NCBI GenBank assembly: GCA_035712245.1
Contig: DASTBC010000064.1
Location: 1 to 34,443, forward strand
From: Candidatus Eisenbacteria bacterium
GTDB lineage: Bacteria > Eisenbacteria > RBG-16-71-46 > SZUA-252
Length of the DNA stretch: 34,443 nucleotides
Direction of reading: 5' to 3'
The notes beneath the pieces were generated by a model. That model worked only from the letters and a program-made list of their open reading frames with translations, did not search any database and was not told where the DNA came from. The stretch's first letter is position 1; each line of letters starts with the position of its first letter. Positions 12,815-22,417 of this stretch are shown here, in pieces. The position numbers and the translations under genes are program-made.

Positions 12815-14677
12815 ATGTCCGTTTCGACGTCCTCTCGTCCGAGTCCTTCGCTGACCTGGTGGATCTTCGCGCTCGCGCTGGTTCCGATGCTCGGAGCCGT
12901 GGGGTGGGCGCTGCTCGCGCTCTCGCGCCATCCCGAGAACGCCTCCGACCGCGAGGCGGCGGCCGCGCTCCTCCGGGTCGCTCCCGCGGTGGAACAGGCG
13001 CTCGACGAGCAGGCGGAACAGCTCGCCCGCCTCGGCGCCGTGATCGCGCGCGATCCGAAGTTCTACGCGGTGCTCACGCTCCCGAGCGCGTCGCGCGCGA
13101 ATCCGGAGTACCGCGAGGCGCTGGACGCGGTGCTCCGGGACTTCCAGCGGGAGGCCGACGTGCCCGTGTTCGCGGTCACGAACCCGCGCGGGAAGCTCCT
13201 CGGCCGGGCCGCCGAGCCCGGTGTCGGCGCCGTCGATCCGAGCGAGGCGCCGTTCGTGCGCGCGGCGCTCCAGGGCAAGGTCGGATCGGGCTACCTGGTC
13301 GAGCGGGAGGGGATCTACCGCGTGTCGGCGGTGCCGATCTCCGCGGGCGGCGTTCTCGTCGGAACGCTCCTGCTCGGCAGGCAGGTGGACGGCGAGCTGG
13401 GGGGCAAGCTCAAGACCGCGACCGAGGCCGACCTCACGCTCACGATCGGGCGCGACATCGCCGCGACCACGCTCGTCCCCTCGCCGCTTCGCAAGGCGCT
13501 GGCCCAGCGTCTCTCCGAGCCCACGTGGGGCGTGGCGAAGGACGCGGACGCCCCGGTCGTCTCCGCCGGCGGCAGGCGATATCTCGCGGTGAGGCGCGAG
13601 ATCCAGGGCCCCGCGGTCGGGGGCCGGAACCTGGGATACGTGCTCACCCGCGCCATTGGATCCGACGCCTCTCCGCTCGCCAAGCTCGAAGCCGATCTCG
13701 TGCGCGCCGCCGGCGTGGGGGTGGCGCTCGCGCTCGTCTGCGGAGGGGTCGTGGCCCTCGCGGTGCGCCGGCAGCGCCGTGCCCAGGAGCGCGCGCACGC
13801 GGAGGAGATCGGTGTGTGGTCGGAGAGGGAGCGCGCGCGAACCGCGCTTCTCGCCTCGGTGGGACGGCGCGTGCTCGACCCCGCCGAGACCGTGTACACG
13901 ATCACGGACCTCGTGGCGGACGGCGCGCTCGGGGATCTCTCCAGTCCGCAGCGCGAAGGACTTCTCGCCATCCGCCGGGCCTCGCGAGGGCTGACGCGCC
14001 TGGGCCAGGATCTCTCCACGGTGGCCTTGCTCGGGCGAGGAGACCAGGCCCTCTCACCCGCGTCGGTCGATATCGGAAACCTGATGGAGCAGGCCGCGAC
14101 GATGCTGATCCCGGTCGCGTCCGAGCGCCGGCAGATGGTCGAGCTCTCGGTGGAGCCCGGCCTGATCCACCCGCACGCCGACCCGCGCCTTCTCGCCCGC
14201 GCCGTCGAGGCGCTCGCGCTCGATCTCGTGGAGCGCGCTCCTGGCGCCACCAAGGTCGTGCTCGAGGCTCGCCGGACTTCCTCCGGAGTCGAGATCCTCA
14301 TCGCCGGTGCCCGGCCGGAGCAGGGGGACGGTGCGGCAGCCGGCTCCCCGGATGGGGACTCCCCGGGTGGAACGGCATCGGTCGCGTCCACGATGGCCGG
14401 TCTCGTGGCCGCCGGGCACGGGGGAGCGTTCGAGGTCCACCTGGGAGAGGGGCTCGCGTACCGGGTCTGGATCCCCGTACCGGCCGCGTTCGAGACGCGC
14501 CAAGCGATGCCGGCTCCTCCGGCGCACCCGTCCGTAACCCCTGTGGCACCCACTCCACTGGCCGTGCCCGCTGCCGAATCCGCAGCGCCCGCCGCACCCG
14601 CAGCGCCCGCCGCACCCGCAGCGCCCGCCGCACCCGATACCACCGACCTACCCCCTGATCCGGCTCGGGCCGCCTAG
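12815..14677 (+). CDS. Membrane sensor resembling a histidine kinase without the phospho-accepting histidine
   Basis: 620 aa; start ATG 12815 has GGGGAA upstream. Two membrane helices (about 14-36 and 295-317) flank a 258-residue periplasmic sensor region. Its CACHE-like strands read ADVPVFAVTNPRGKLLGRA and GIYRVSAVPISAGGVLVGTLLLG. Residues 340-405 align in pattern with a HisKA helix pair, but the expected S-H-E-L-x-x-P reads G-R-R-V-L-D-P, with Arg351 where His should be. The following ATPase-like region (415-555) lacks an evident N-box Asn and the glycine-rich ATP loops, ending in HGGAFEVHLGEGLAYRVWIPV. It is probably a pseudokinase acting through binding, not phosphotransfer. The C-terminus is Pro/Ala-rich with repeats. 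No response regulator is adjacent. Confidence 0.8.
   Translation: MSVSTSSRPSPSLTWWIFALALVPMLGAVGWALLALSRHPENASDREAAAALLRVAPAVEQALDEQAEQLARLGAVIARDPKFYAVLTLPSASRANPEYREALDAVLRDFQREADVPVFAVTNPRGKLLGRAAEPGVGAVDPSEAPFVRAALQGKVGSGYLVEREGIYRVSAVPISAGGVLVGTLLLGRQVDGELGGKLKTATEADLTLTIGRDIAATTLVPSPLRKALAQRLSEPTWGVAKDADAPVVSAGGRRYLAVRREIQGPAVGGRNLGYVLTRAIGSDASPLAKLEADLVRAAGVGVALALVCGGVVALAVRRQRRAQERAHAEEIGVWSERERARTALLASVGRRVLDPAETVYTITDLVADGALGDLSSPQREGLLAIRRASRGLTRLGQDLSTVALLGRGDQALSPASVDIGNLMEQAATMLIPVASERRQMVELSVEPGLIHPHADPRLLARAVEALALDLVERAPGATKVVLEARRTSSGVEILIAGARPEQGDGAAAGSPDGDSPGGTASVASTMAGLVAAGHGGAFEVHLGEGLAYRVWIPVPAAFETRQAMPAPPAHPSVTPVAPTPLAVPAAESAAPAAPAAPAAPAAPAAPDTTDLPPDPARAA
14582..14635 (+). 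repeat. Three 18-bp tandem repeats encoding Pro-Ala linker
   Basis: GCAGCGCCCGCCGCACCC is present three times in perfect tandem and encodes (AAP)n near the C-terminus of the sensor protein. Such identical copies are prone to length variation by slippage; the polypeptide would be an extended, flexible tail. Confidence 0.9.
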
Positions 14678-14989
14678 ATCGGCTCGAGGAGACAAGCGCG
14701 CCCGACACTAGCAGTCAACATTTGATTACTTAGATAACTGCTTTAAACTCATTGGCTTGAGGTGTGGCGCCTAAAACGTCCAAATATGGCGACACTCTGA
14801 GCGCTTCACCCGCCTGTCGACCATCGCAAACCGCAACTCTCCAATTAATTGCTTGGCTTCAGCTTACATCGATCTTCATCGGGGCCATTGCAAGTGGCAC
14901 GACCGCTGCTCTAGCCAGTTCCCGTCAGCGCGCTCGTGAAGACGAGCAAAACGAAGTGAGAAACGAACTTCCAACCTGTGAGGTGAAAC
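14678..14989 (+). other. AT-rich intergenic stretch before the twin peptide genes
   Basis: No convincing protein is encoded in these 312 bases. From about 14710 to 14990 the base composition drops visibly, with runs such as TTTGATTACTTAGATAAC and CCAATTAATTGC, unlike any other part of the window. Possible elements: an inverted repeat AGCAGT/ACTGCT at 14710-14715 and 14737-14742; a sigma70-like pair TTGATT (14722-14727) and TAAACT (14744-14749) with a 16-bp spacer; a palindrome CAATTAATTG at 14842-14851; and the -24/-12-like site listed separately. It reads as a regulatory region or acquired DNA. A GTG-started frame from 14764 runs across both micro-genes but has no SD or recognisable domain and is not called. 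Confidence 0.6.
14895..14910 (+). promoter_or_regulatory. Possible sigma54-type (-24/-12) promoter
   Basis: TGGCACGACCGCTGCT matches the RpoN consensus TGGCAC-N5-TTGCW with one change in the -12 block. GG and GC are separated by exactly 10 bases, as required. Transcription would start near 14921, about 70 bases before the first micro-gene. Only a sequence match; no enhancer-binding protein gene is in the window. Confidence 0.35.
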
Positions 14990-15061
14990 ATGCTCGAACT
15001 CGCCCTGATCCTGATCGCGGTGTCCTTCGCTGGTGGCGGTGGTGGCAAGGCTGGCTGGTAA
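14990..15061 (+). CDS. 23-aa micro-protein 1, hydrophobic with FAGGGGGKAGW ending
   Basis: ATG at 14990 follows GAGGTGA (14980-14986) and an in-frame TGA at 14984, so the frame cannot be longer at the 5' end. The peptide has one acidic residue (Glu3), a hydrophobic stretch at residues 4-13 (LALILIAVSF), Ala14, five glycines, then Lys20-Ala-Gly-Trp23. The micro-gene at 15132 encodes the same last eleven residues with different synonymous codons, which argues strongly that the peptide is translated and selected. At 10-14 residues the hydrophobic part is short for a full membrane span. No leader with a cleavage motif is visible. I do not recognise the family; candidates are a signalling peptide, small membrane protein, toxin or leaderless bacteriocin. 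Confidence 0.8.
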   Translation: MLELALILIAVSFAGGGGGKAGW

Positions 15062-15114
15062 CGGACGAACGCAGTGGCAGTGCCGGTGAGACGAACCGAA
15101 CCCCGAACCAGACG

Positions 15115-15124
15115 AAGGAGGTGA
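15115..15124 (+). promoter_or_regulatory. Full-length Shine-Dalgarno for micro-protein 2
   Basis: AAGGAGGTGA is the exact complement of the ten bases near the 3' end of typical bacterial 16S rRNA and lies seven bases ahead of the ATG at 15132. Such a complete match suggests very efficient initiation. Confidence 0.85.
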
Positions 15125-15131
15125 ATCAAGA

Positions 15132-15200
15132 ATGGAAGCCATCGTCATCCTGATCGCGATCGCGTTCGCCGGAGGCGGCGGAGGAAAGGCCGGCTGGTAA
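15132..15200 (+). CDS. 22-aa micro-protein 2, paralogue of micro-protein 1
   Basis: ATG at 15132 sits behind a perfect AAGGAGGTGA. The peptide starts MEA, has a hydrophobic stretch at residues 4-13 (IVILIAIAFA), then five glycines and Lys19-Ala-Gly-Trp22, TAA stop. Compared with micro-protein 1, the eleven-residue ending FAGGGGGKAGW is unchanged while six of eleven codons differ silently and none differ in meaning. The shared ILIA core shows the hydrophobic part is also related. It lies 70 bases after the first copy and is followed by two hairpins (15217-15246, 15264-15299). Function unknown; high expression is expected from the ribosome site. The tandem arrangement suggests two subunits acting together or a duplicated signal. 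Confidence 0.85.
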   Translation: MEAIVILIAIAFAGGGGGKAGW

Positions 15201-15216: not shown

Positions 15217-15246
15217 GTCCGCGGGAGCGGGCGAACCCCCGCGGAC
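15217..15246 (+). terminator. GC-rich hairpin downstream of the micro-genes
   Basis: GTCCGCGGG (15217-15225) and CCCGCGGAC (15238-15246) are exact complements around a 12-base loop. It begins 16 bases after the second micro-gene's stop. No T-run follows, so it may protect the 3' end of a short mRNA or assist termination together with the next hairpin. Confidence 0.5.
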
Positions 15247-15263
15247 CGAGCAGCAAGCGGATG

Positions 15264-15299
15264 GATGGGCCACCGAATGCACCCCCTTGGTGGCCCATC
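15264..15299 (+). terminator. Second perfect hairpin downstream of the micro-genes
   Basis: GATGGGCCACC (15264-15274) and GGTGGCCCATC (15289-15299) form an 11-bp perfect stem with a 14-base loop. It is followed by TGCGTTTCGG, a weak T tract. It most likely ends the micro-gene transcript. The rest of the gap to 15531 shows no gene, only a short GCCCC/GGGGC hairpin around 15334-15348 and a C-rich stretch. Confidence 0.55.
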
Positions 15300-15544
15300 T
15301 GCGTTTCGGACAACGGAGGGTCCGGTGCAGGGAGCCCCACGGTGGGGCGGCTAGCCGACGCGGGGGTGTCATCCGTCGCACGCTGTTCCGCCTCTCCCTG
15401 CACCTCCACTCCCCCTCGACATCACCCGCGGAGAACTCCTCCGCACTCCCGTCCTTCGTGCACGGCATCGCCCGTGATACCCTTCCGGTCTTCTCGCAGC
15501 CCGGATCGGGCTCGCTCCACCCACCCCTAGTAAGGAGGATCGGC

Positions 15545-19271: not shown

Positions 19272-19807
19272 GGAACCCTCCTGCGGATGTGCCCCACACA
19301 CGCAATAAAGCCGAGCGGGCCACGGGCCCGACCGGCTGGGGGGGACGCGCCTGCGCTGCTTCCTCGCATCACCAGGATGTCGAGTAAGGTGCGGAGTGTC
19401 CGCCATTTCGGGGCCCAGCGCAAGTGCTCCTCGCGACCAGGCCCAGGAGTATGGAGAGGGCGTCGCCGAGCCCGTTCGACCCCCGTCTCGGTGCGGGCGG
19501 TGCGGCGCGGACAGGTGACCACTCGCTCCGTCCACTCCGCGTGACCCAGCCCGCGCCGTGGCGTGCCTTCTGCCCGCCTTCGCCAGCGCACCGATCGGCC
19601 AGCGGCACGGGTGCAAGCTCAAGTGTTCTAGCGAAATGGCCGACCGCATCGAGCGCCGGCGCCCTCGACGGTCCACCGGAAAAGGTCCCGCCCGGACAGG
19701 CCGATAAAGCAATCGACCGTCCAGGGTACGCGCCTCCACGGGGAAGCGGGAGCGGGGTGTATGATCACGGTCGAGGATTCGTGACGTCGACCTCAGGGAG
19801 GGAACGG
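19272..19807. other. Divergent intergenic region between sulfatase and lon
   Basis: No protein with a plausible SD and composition was found in these 536 bases. A TATGAT hexamer at 19760-19765 lies 42 bp before the lon start and may be its -10 box, though no good -35 is visible at the right distance. CCGCCATTTCG near 19402 and CGAAATGGCCG near 19631 are approximate inverted copies of unknown meaning. Confidence 0.4.
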
Positions 19808-22417
19808 ATGAACCGACGACCGATGGCCGAGCTCGGACCGACTCTCGAGTGCGACGTCCCGCCGGTCATGCCGGTGCTCCCCCTGATGAGCACCATCATC
19901 TTTCCGCTCGGTGTCACGTCCCTCCAGATCCGCGTGGAGCAATCGAAAGCGCTCCTCAAGGACCACTCGGACCCCGACACCCTGATCGCCCTGGTCTACA
20001 GCCCCGCCCGGAAGGAGCAGGACATCCGGGCCGAGGAGCTGAGCCAGGTCGGCCTGGCCGCCCGCGTGATCCGGATCCTCAACATGCCGGGAGGGAACGT
20101 CCAGGTCACCCTCGAAGGTCTCCGCCGCGTTCGGATCGAGGAGATCCTCTCCACCGCGCCCTACATCTCCGCCCGCGTGAGCTGTCCGATCGAGCAGAGC
20201 GGCGATCCCGAGGAGGTCCGGGGACTCGTCGCGAGAATCCTGAAGTCGCTCCGGAGCCTCTCCCATCTCGACAACACCTATCCGCCAGAGCTCGACAACA
20301 TCTTCTCGATGAACCTGGGCGACCCCGGGCTCTTCGCGGACACCGTCGCCTCCATCGTCCGGCTGCCGCTCGAGACCAAGAAGGCGATCGTCGAGACGCT
20401 CGAGGTGCAGGCAAGGCTCGCGGTCGTCGCCGAGGCGCTCGACTCCGAGATCGCGCGGCTCAGCGTGGCCGAGGACGTCGTGCGCCGCACGAGCGCTCAG
20501 ATGGAGAAGAGCCAGCGCGAGTTCTTCCTGCGCGAGCAGCTGAACGAGATCCGCCGGCTCCTCGGCGAGGACGATCCCCAGGAGATCCTGGTGCGCGAGA
20601 TCCTGGACCGTGCGCAGGGGCTCGGGCTCCCGCGCCATGTCATCTCGGTCGTACAGGAGGAGACGAACCGGCTGCGGTATCTGCCCTCGTCATCCCAGGA
20701 GTCGGGCGTCATCCGCAACTACATCGACTGGCTGCTCTCCCTGCCGTGGGGCCGGCGCACGGCGAACGAGATCAACCTGGACGAGGTCGCGCGGCGCCTG
20801 GACGAGGAGCACTTCGGACTCGAGAAGGTGAAGGAGCGGATCCTCGAGTACCTCGCGGTGCTGAAGCTGAAGAAGGATCCGCGCGGGCCGGTCCTCTGCT
20901 TCGCGGGGCCACCGGGCACGGGGAAGACGTCCCTCGGCGCCTCGATCGCGCGAGCCATGGGACGCGTCTGCATCCGCATGAGCGTGGGCGGCGTGCGGGA
21001 CGAGGCGGAGATCCGGGGACACCGGCGCACGTACATCGGCTCCATGCCCGGAAAGATCATCCGGAGCCTCCGCGACTCCAACTCGAGCAATCCCGTCTTC
21101 ATGATCGACGAGATCGACAAGCTGGGGCACGACGCGCAGGGGGATCCCGCGGCCGCGCTTCTCGAGGTGCTGGATCCGGAGCAGAACGCGCACTTCATGG
21201 ATCACTACATCGAGATTCCGTTCAATCTCTCCGAAACGCTGTTCATCACGACGGCGAACGTGCTCGATTTCGTGCCCCCCGCGCTGCTGGACCGGCTCGA
21301 GGTCATCCCGATCCCCGGCTACATGGACGAGGAGAAGCTCGAGATCGCGCGGAAGCACCTCATCCCGCGCGAGGCGCGCGAGCACGGGCTCGCCGCCACG
21401 GACATCGCGTTCGACGACGCGGCGCTCGTGAAGCTGATCCGCGAGTACACCCGCGAGGCGGGCGTGCGGCAGCTCGAGCGCGCGATCGACAACTTCTGCC
21501 GGAAGGCCGCGCGGCAGCGCACGACGGGCTACACGGGGAACTGGCGGTTCACCGAGGACGACGTCGAGAAGATCATGGGCCCGCCGTACATCCTCCCGGA
21601 CCGTCCGGAAGGTCGCGCCGAGGTGGGCGTCGCGACGGGCCTCGCATGGACCACGACCGGCGGGGATCTGCTCCTGATCGAGGCGCTGAAGATGCGCGGC
21701 GCGGGGCGCGTGATCGTGACGGGGCAGCTCGGCGACGTGATGAAGGAATCCGTGCAGGCGGCGCACTCCTACGTGCGCGCGCGGGCCGAGATGCTCTGCA
21801 TCGATCCGAAGCTCTTCGACGAGTTCGACATGCACATCCACTTCCCCGAGGGCGCGGTCCCCAAGGACGGTCCCTCGGCGGGGATCACGATCGTGATGGC
21901 GATCGCGTCCGCGCTCGCGGAAGCGCCGATCCGCAACGACGTCGCGATGACCGGCGAGGTCACGCTTCGCGGGAAGGTGGTCGCGGTGGGCGGGCTCAAA
22001 GAGAAGGTCATGGCCGCGTACCGCGCCGGGATCAAGGTCGTGGTCTTTCCCGCGGACAACCAGAAGGACCTGGTCGAGGTGCCCGAGCCGATCCGTTCCA
22101 AGATGACGTTCGTCCCGGTCGCGGTCGTGGACGAGGTCTTCCAGCACGCGTTCGCCGGCGTGGCCGAGCGGATCGCGAAGCTCGAGGCACAGGAGGCGCG
22201 GCGCCGCGAGCGCGCCGCGACGCGGAACGGCTCGAAGGCCGCGTCGGGCCGCAAGGCCGCGGGACGGCGGGCCGCGAAGGGCGGCAGTGCGCGCCGGGCC
22301 GTGAAGGGCGCGGACAAGACCGAGCGCGCGGCCCGGAACGGCCGAGCCGCGCGCGCCGGGAAGACCCGCAGACGCGCCGGTCGCGTCAACGGCAGGGAGG
22401 CCGCGAAGCCTCGCTAG
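19808..22417 (+). CDS. lon: ATP-dependent Lon protease with basic C-terminal tail
   Basis: 869 aa; AGGGAGGG precedes the ATG. Domain order is that of LonA: N-terminal substrate domain (about 20-215, PVLPLMSTIIFPLGVTSLQI), coiled-coil, AAA+ module with Walker A GPPGTGKT near 366-373 and Walker B FMIDEIDKLG near 431, then the protease domain. The catalytic dyad is Ser690 in PKDGPSAG and Lys733 in GLKEK. Lon degrades misfolded and regulatory proteins in the cytoplasm. The unusual part is a 72-residue tail (about 798-869) almost free of hydrophobics and rich in Arg, Lys, Ala and Gly, absent from the well-known Lon enzymes. It might enhance DNA or polyphosphate binding, both known for Lon (inference). 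The 3' end overlaps the convergent gene by 32 bp. Confidence 0.96.
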   Translation: MNRRPMAELGPTLECDVPPVMPVLPLMSTIIFPLGVTSLQIRVEQSKALLKDHSDPDTLIALVYSPARKEQDIRAEELSQVGLAARVIRILNMPGGNVQVTLEGLRRVRIEEILSTAPYISARVSCPIEQSGDPEEVRGLVARILKSLRSLSHLDNTYPPELDNIFSMNLGDPGLFADTVASIVRLPLETKKAIVETLEVQARLAVVAEALDSEIARLSVAEDVVRRTSAQMEKSQREFFLREQLNEIRRLLGEDDPQEILVREILDRAQGLGLPRHVISVVQEETNRLRYLPSSSQESGVIRNYIDWLLSLPWGRRTANEINLDEVARRLDEEHFGLEKVKERILEYLAVLKLKKDPRGPVLCFAGPPGTGKTSLGASIARAMGRVCIRMSVGGVRDEAEIRGHRRTYIGSMPGKIIRSLRDSNSSNPVFMIDEIDKLGHDAQGDPAAALLEVLDPEQNAHFMDHYIEIPFNLSETLFITTANVLDFVPPALLDRLEVIPIPGYMDEEKLEIARKHLIPREAREHGLAATDIAFDDAALVKLIREYTREAGVRQLERAIDNFCRKAARQRTTGYTGNWRFTEDDVEKIMGPPYILPDRPEGRAEVGVATGLAWTTTGGDLLLIEALKMRGAGRVIVTGQLGDVMKESVQAAHSYVRARAEMLCIDPKLFDEFDMHIHFPEGAVPKDGPSAGITIVMAIASALAEAPIRNDVAMTGEVTLRGKVVAVGGLKEKVMAAYRAGIKVVVFPADNQKDLVEVPEPIRSKMTFVPVAVVDEVFQHAFAGVAERIAKLEAQEARRRERAATRNGSKAASGRKAAGRRAAKGGSARRAVKGADKTERAARNGRAARAGKTRRRAGRVNGREAAKPR

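Follow-up and report, generated by a model that had tools for sequence, protein, structure and literature searches.

A putative micropeptide family with a C-terminal tag shared with lipoproteins, and its apparent link to MASE9 sensors in Candidatus Eisenbacteria and other bacteria

In the ComX-ComP and AgrD-AgrC systems, a short peptide gene lies beside the gene for its polytopic membrane receptor, which has a signalling output, while in MgrB-PhoQ and in the case of SafA a tiny hydrophobic peptide acts on a membrane sensor, and in the RcsF-IgaA and NlpE-Cpx relays a lipoprotein is encoded beside, or acts on, an integral membrane sensor component. The micropeptide genes described here resemble each of these in part. 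With ComX-ComP and AgrD-AgrC they have in common the gene arrangement, a small variable tail and tandem or multiplied units, but no gene for a modifying or processing enzyme was seen, MASE9 is the candidate receptor domain, HD-GYP and GGDEF-EAL are among the outputs, the peptide tag also ends lipoproteins, and release is putative. Like MgrB and SafA they are tiny and hydrophobic with a membrane sensor as likely partner, but they are shorter, operon-linked to MASE9 and carry a fixed C-terminal tag common to lipoproteins. The tagged lipoproteins, whose likeness to the RcsF-IgaA and NlpE-Cpx relays is by analogy, differ from these in their common C-terminal tag, which is a candidate contact. We know of no other case in which micropeptides and lipoproteins end in one and the same short tag.

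The founding pair lies in a stretch of 34,443 nucleotides from Candidatus Eisenbacteria bacterium (contig DASTBC010000064.1 of assembly GCA_035712245.1), the whole of which we call the window. A first-pass annotation made from the sequence alone had reported two adjacent micro-ORFs with a common ending, each preceded by a ribosome site, and both frames were found at the positions it gave, with a perfect Shine-Dalgarno before the second and a GAGGTG before the first that is kept in all eight family members:

14980-14985, + strand: ribosome binding site of micro-ORF 1, GAGGTG (sequence; kept in the 8-genome alignment)
14990-15061, + strand: micropeptide gene 1, encoding MLELALILIAVSFAGGGGGKAGW, 23 aa (sequence, family conservation)
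15116-15125, + strand: ribosome binding site of micro-ORF 2, perfect Shine-Dalgarno AAGGAGGTGA (sequence)
15132-15200, + strand: micropeptide gene 2, encoding MEAIVILIAIAFAGGGGGKAGW, 22 aa (sequence, family conservation)

In each peptide a hydrophobic helix is joined by a short flexible linker to the C-terminal tag GKAGW-COOH. Over the last 11 codons the two ORFs differ by six silent changes and zero replacements, as the annotation had counted, and its view that selection acts at the level of the peptide is borne out. The pattern GGGGKAGW-stop occurs in its own genome at two places only, the two micro-ORFs, and the reversed pattern gives 0 matches. Synteny, the reversed-pattern controls and the silent-only tag changes rule out chance ORFs; we take both to be genuine micropeptide genes. 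The few matches to GGGGKAGW-stop outside the family (L009-L014; five in genome contigs and one viral) contain no such micro-ORF and were taken as chance, including the single hit on the viral contig, an open frame at L014:1022-1048 that ends SGNGGGGKAGW-stop.

The annotation had named absence from related genomes as grounds for rejection. When this check was run, the tandem pair ending GKAGW-stop was present at the same genomic place in 8 of the 9 family genomes, and the ninth (G046), in which no pair was found, is 78% complete. Across the family, KAGW-stop gave 34 matches compared with 4 for the reversed control. The tag has zero replacement changes among 16 family ORFs while its Gly and Ala codons vary, a count that includes only tag-keeping ORFs because the search pattern fixes the amino acids. 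The cores of the family peptides differ (AGGGGG, AGTVPPPP, AGPGPD, FSL) while the tag is constant. The surroundings of the pair are as follows:

12815-14677, + strand: dCache_3 sensor, conserved upstream neighbour, kinase degenerate in the window's genome (start inferred)
14895-14910, + strand: sigma54-type -24/-12 promoter, TGGCACGACCGCTGCT (exact match, family conservation)
15217-15246, + strand: conserved RNA hairpin after ORF2, element containing GGGCGAACCCC (z -2.46)
15263-15300, + strand: terminator-like hairpin, GATGGGCCACC..GGTGGCCCATC (in relatives, a T run follows the hairpin)
19424-22417, + strand: Lon-like protease, conserved downstream neighbour (from sequence; ORF limits, true start further in)

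Within the window the sigma54-type site has no second exact match; allowing one mismatch, the expected number is 0.53. In all 7 genomes that have upstream sequence, TGGCACG-N4-CTGC stands at the same distance, about 80 nt, upstream of ORF1, and the 6 exact TGGCACG-N4-[CT]TGC sites in the 302 kb of family loci examined are all promoter sites of the pair. Both hairpins after ORF2 are kept in most family genomes; a simple terminator scan missed the one at 15263-15300 because its T run is short in the window. No RNA family was matched in Rfam (best E 0.9).

Lon adjoins the pair in 8 of 8 family loci, directly after it in the relatives and with other genes inserted between the two in the window's genome. 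On the other side stands the dCache sensor in every family locus except that of G044, whose short contig is missing this side. The sensor of the window matches dCache_3 with no HisKA or HATPase_c match, both of which are matched in its G039 homologue (L076:7677-9545), and by this sequence comparison its kinase seems to have decayed in the window's genome. The first pass had read the two neighbours, a pseudokinase sensor and a periplasmic helical protein, as a hint of envelope signalling. We likewise judge this the likely field, and the upstream sensor is conserved; the periplasmic helical protein is no conserved neighbour, its place being taken directly by Lon in the relatives.

Five other families of the phylum (f7-f11) carry single micro-ORFs, mostly ending ..G[KR]AGW-stop, directly upstream of a MASE9-HD-GYP gene. 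Those of the sister family f11 encode 16-18 residues, for example MDLLIEIVELFGKAGW, and related micro-ORFs in f7-f10 have other W-containing endings (NGGRAGW, SRGHW, SGGQSNWW, three GGHAWW units, YRAGWGPGGP). The order of a conserved uncharacterised gene, the micro-ORF and the MASE9-HD-GYP gene was found at 20 of the 20 f7-f11 loci examined; as these loci were selected for carrying a micro-ORF, the figure describes positional consistency and not the frequency of micro-ORFs at MASE9-HD-GYP genes. The peptide gene thus adjoins a membrane receptor gene at all 20 of these loci, but not in the window's family, where the pair is beside Lon and just one stand-alone MASE9 was found in the window's genome. 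In the window's family the micropeptide genes would have left the MASE9 operon and come to be driven by sigma54 next to Lon.

Several further features of these loci were observed. The conserved gene (L099:9015-9842 and equivalents; ..EPTEYVLRPTS..) always precedes the micropeptide and MASE9-HD-GYP genes in f7-f11 and has no Pfam or NCBIfam match. Between it and the f11 micro-ORFs (L094-L106) lie repeated AGCGAAGCG boxes and GACCCACC. The micro-ORF with three GGHAWW units is located upstream of MASE9-HD-GYP at L147:1319 (G015), and a similar ORF with three DWVW units and a weak ribosome site is found downstream of a MASE9 gene at L162:3596 (G012). Upstream of stand-alone MASE9 in L083 (G000) and L093 (G045), a further micro-ORF, MTRLPKRVLYRIALAGSSVVALVWF and MTRLPKKVLFRIAAAAATLIGLVSF respectively, may be another MASE9-linked peptide.

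The MASE9 assignment (PF20972) of the G000:C34 protein comes from a Pfam profile match with an E-value of 1.2e-6 and 29.1 bits against a cut-off of 24.3. MASE9 is found in 38 of 47 genomes of the phylum, above the Pfam cut-off in 32 of the 47. Of three other phyla searched, one has it in 38 of 251 genomes, the one that includes a Streptomyces in 81 of 247 and that of G048 in 0 of 297. Among cultured organisms, Thermotoga maritima and Thermus composti have MASE9. The linked MASE9 proteins carry HD-GYP, GAF-HK, HisKA_3 HK or GGDEF-EAL outputs and, as these differ, MASE9 is their common factor. In a table compiled by hand, a tagged protein or MASE9-linked micropeptide was present in 36 of the 38 MASE9-bearing genomes of the phylum and in 0 of the 9 that lack MASE9 (Fisher p 4e-8, ignoring phylogeny and completeness); among genomes at least 90% complete, the counts were 23 of 24 versus 0 of 2, again ignoring phylogeny, and both tallies lend weak support. 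In a separate family, f5 (G007-G011), no MASE9, tagged lipoprotein or micropeptide was detected.

The structural model of the G000 MASE9 domain has a pLDDT of 94.6, and its nearest folds in the PDB are ECF S-components (RibU, FolT; PDB 5kbw, 5d0y), with probabilities of 0.99-1.00 but E-values of 0.1-1, none below 0.1; the TM-score is about 0.5 when normalised to the query and up to 0.70 when normalised to the target. As modelled, MASE9 would resemble a ligand-binding membrane fold, although unlike the S-components it is fused to signalling domains. A PDB sequence search with the MASE9 alignment gave no match.

The same tag forms the C-terminus of lipoproteins in families f1, f2, f3, f4, f8 and f11, as HFSxY..G[KR]AGW-stop or close variants; a few deviate, with GTAGW or GGKGGW as the ending or with further residues behind the tag. 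Several tagged-lipoprotein genes are adjoined by a stand-alone MASE9 gene, while 3 of 12 short MASE9 genes had no tagged lipoprotein alongside in the sequence examined. A scan of 12 loci found no sigma54-type site upstream of the lipoprotein genes. A second kind of exported protein, ending PPGKAGW-stop and without the HFS motif, is encoded in L107 and L108 (G037).

By sequence, the tagged lipoprotein has no Pfam match. Its model, which has a pLDDT of 69 with a well-predicted core, matches ZU5 (Foldseek 3ud2_B, E 3.4e-4, probability 1.00), and the HFS motif is invariant in an alignment of seven lipoproteins. The fold and motif are those of the autoproteolytic ZU5 proteins PIDD, CARD8 and NLRP1; in PIDD, autocleavage takes place at HF/S, downstream of the ZU5 domains (PMC3210808), and it has been proposed that bacterial surface proteins undergo ZU5 self-processing too (PMC3482391). 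As the lipoprotein ZU5 domain has an HFS motif where PIDD self-cleaves, a peptide such as SRYSGGKAGW could be released. The tagged lipoproteins differ from PIDD, CARD8 and NLRP1 in that no more than about 15 residues separate HFS from the C-terminus and no UPA or death domain is present.

In two further groups, Actinomycetota among them, many MASE9 genes are likewise preceded by micro-ORFs, here with aromatic-ended tails of other kinds. Their products combine a basic N-terminus and a hydrophobic core with an aromatic residue that is terminal or nearly so (MKTKIIVLLTSLAALVLGGGAGWRW, MKARLMRLAVTLSTVAAAAIAGGASFKGF), some occur as tandem identical copies, and a signal-peptide-like N-terminus is confined to the peptides of Actinomycetota and the phylum of G050. 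Using a fixed criterion, an upstream micro-ORF that is Shine-Dalgarno-led, hydrophobic and aromatic-ended, 31 of 86 MASE9 loci from three groups qualified, whereas the reverse strand gave 2 and shuffling an expectation of about 1.4. Since examples were already known when the criterion was set, the enrichment describes the pattern and does not test a prior prediction. About two thirds of the 86 loci have no micro-ORF under this strict criterion. Near 365 ordinary gene starts it gave 16 hits, comprising 14 tag micropeptides and 2 beside stand-alone MASE9 genes. Within the Streptomyces phylum, the micropeptides adjacent to MASE9 in a low-GC lineage end in STVRW, a pattern with 16 genic matches before a stop codon versus 1 for the reversed control, and two micro-ORFs at distal sites, as well as one larger secreted-like protein, also end in STVRW-stop. 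At the level of sequence, this lineage is a repeat of the tag principle with an unrelated tag.

Adjacency in several lineages, the lineage-wise change of tag and the ending common to micropeptides and lipoproteins suggest that MASE9 reads the tag, and we judge it somewhat probable that the tag, brought by micropeptides and lipoproteins alike, serves the MASE9 membrane domain as a recognition signal, either ligand or docking. The tag would reach the extracytoplasmic side, dock via its terminal aromatic and a basic residue into a MASE9 pocket and thereby alter c-di-GMP turnover or phosphorylation as the output. The tag of the micropeptides may also come from lipoproteins, possibly after self-cleavage at HFS. 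Export of the tag is suggested by the lipoproteins and, outside the phylum, by N-termini that look like signals, and is less evident for f1. Being acidic, amphipathic and unlike signal peptides, the f11 peptides (MDLLIEIVELFGKAGW) do not suit it, so a single export route does not fit all. Points that count against our reading are the location of the window's pair away from MASE9, the high E-values of the S-component match, the f11 peptides, the loci that yielded no micro-ORF under the strict criterion and the short MASE9 genes that lacked a neighbouring tagged lipoprotein in the sequence examined. Both a secreted signal and a small membrane-protein regulator, which the first-pass annotation had put forward, agree with the data.

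Most f1 peptides have a hydrophobic stretch, which together with the adjacency of micropeptide genes to MASE9, the common factor, would also suit peptides that remain membrane-bound and act as small regulatory subunits of MASE9 proteins, comparable to MgrB and SafA, with no release and with the tag as an assembly interface that also tethers the lipoproteins to MASE9. The f11 peptides are without a transmembrane stretch and the multiplied tail units of G015, with three GGHAWW, look more like repeated ligand units, and we consider this account less likely than the one above. Less probable again is a C-terminal sorting or degradation signal for a protease, transpeptidase or Lon, with micropeptides as competitors or reporters: such a role would fit a short tag at the end of unrelated exported proteins and the neighbouring Lon in all eight family loci, but the neighbour in other families is MASE9, Lon works in the cytoplasm, from which the tagged lipoproteins are exported, and these lipoproteins do not have the hydrophobic and basic tail of known CTERM signals.

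The size, hydrophobicity and tandem copies of the peptides recall Ldr, Fst or PSM-like peptides, as would be expected of membrane-active toxins of type I toxin-antitoxin systems or of leaderless bacteriocins. A fixed tag common to lipoproteins, stable chromosomal synteny and an operon with a sensor make this very improbable; no immunity gene was seen in the loci, and the earlier suggestion of a paired leaderless bacteriocin gained no support. Its suggestion of a RiPP substrate fared no better, no modifying enzyme being recognised among the neighbours compared, part of which were scanned for enzyme domains. Leader peptides whose translation controls the downstream gene would fit micro-ORFs 5' of MASE9 genes and are the least credible proposal, since the pair of the window's family is located elsewhere and ends in a terminator-like hairpin, the tag codons vary silently and the same tag ends unrelated larger proteins.

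Recognition of the tag by MASE9, the reading we prefer, can be extended to a broader scheme that we put forward tentatively, as a possibility short of probable. In at least three bacterial groups, MASE9 receptors resembling S-components would receive one C-terminal peptide from two sources, micropeptides and self-cleaving ZU5 lipoproteins. The tags would be lineage-specific ([KR]AGW, STVRW, FKGF/FRGW and others), and the system would couple c-di-GMP turnover and histidine kinases to the sensing of peptides at the envelope or between cells.

The first-pass annotation knew of no described family with this ending, and among 14 distinct micropeptides scanned we likewise found no significant Pfam or NCBIfam match. 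A limited literature search returned no description of such micropeptides, no relevant MASE9 paper and nothing pertinent on small proteins with HD-GYP; together, these results are limited evidence of novelty. By sequence comparison, the window's pair appears to be part of a widespread peptide family, so far undescribed, whose members have 16-40 residues and are usually encoded beside a MASE9 sensor. No stimulus is known for the MASE-type sensor domains of c-di-GMP enzymes, as a 2022 review states for MASE1 (PMC8846402). The position of the micropeptides beside MASE9, and last residues that they share with secreted lipoproteins, suggest a hitherto unrecognised bacterial peptide-sensing system. 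If the tag is a MASE9 ligand, a sensor domain of several bacterial groups would gain a candidate ligand that is genetically encoded and can be synthesized, and the oversight of micro-ORFs that fall below the usual annotation length would be explained; a C-terminal tag common to micropeptides and lipoproteins would, to our knowledge, be a new principle.
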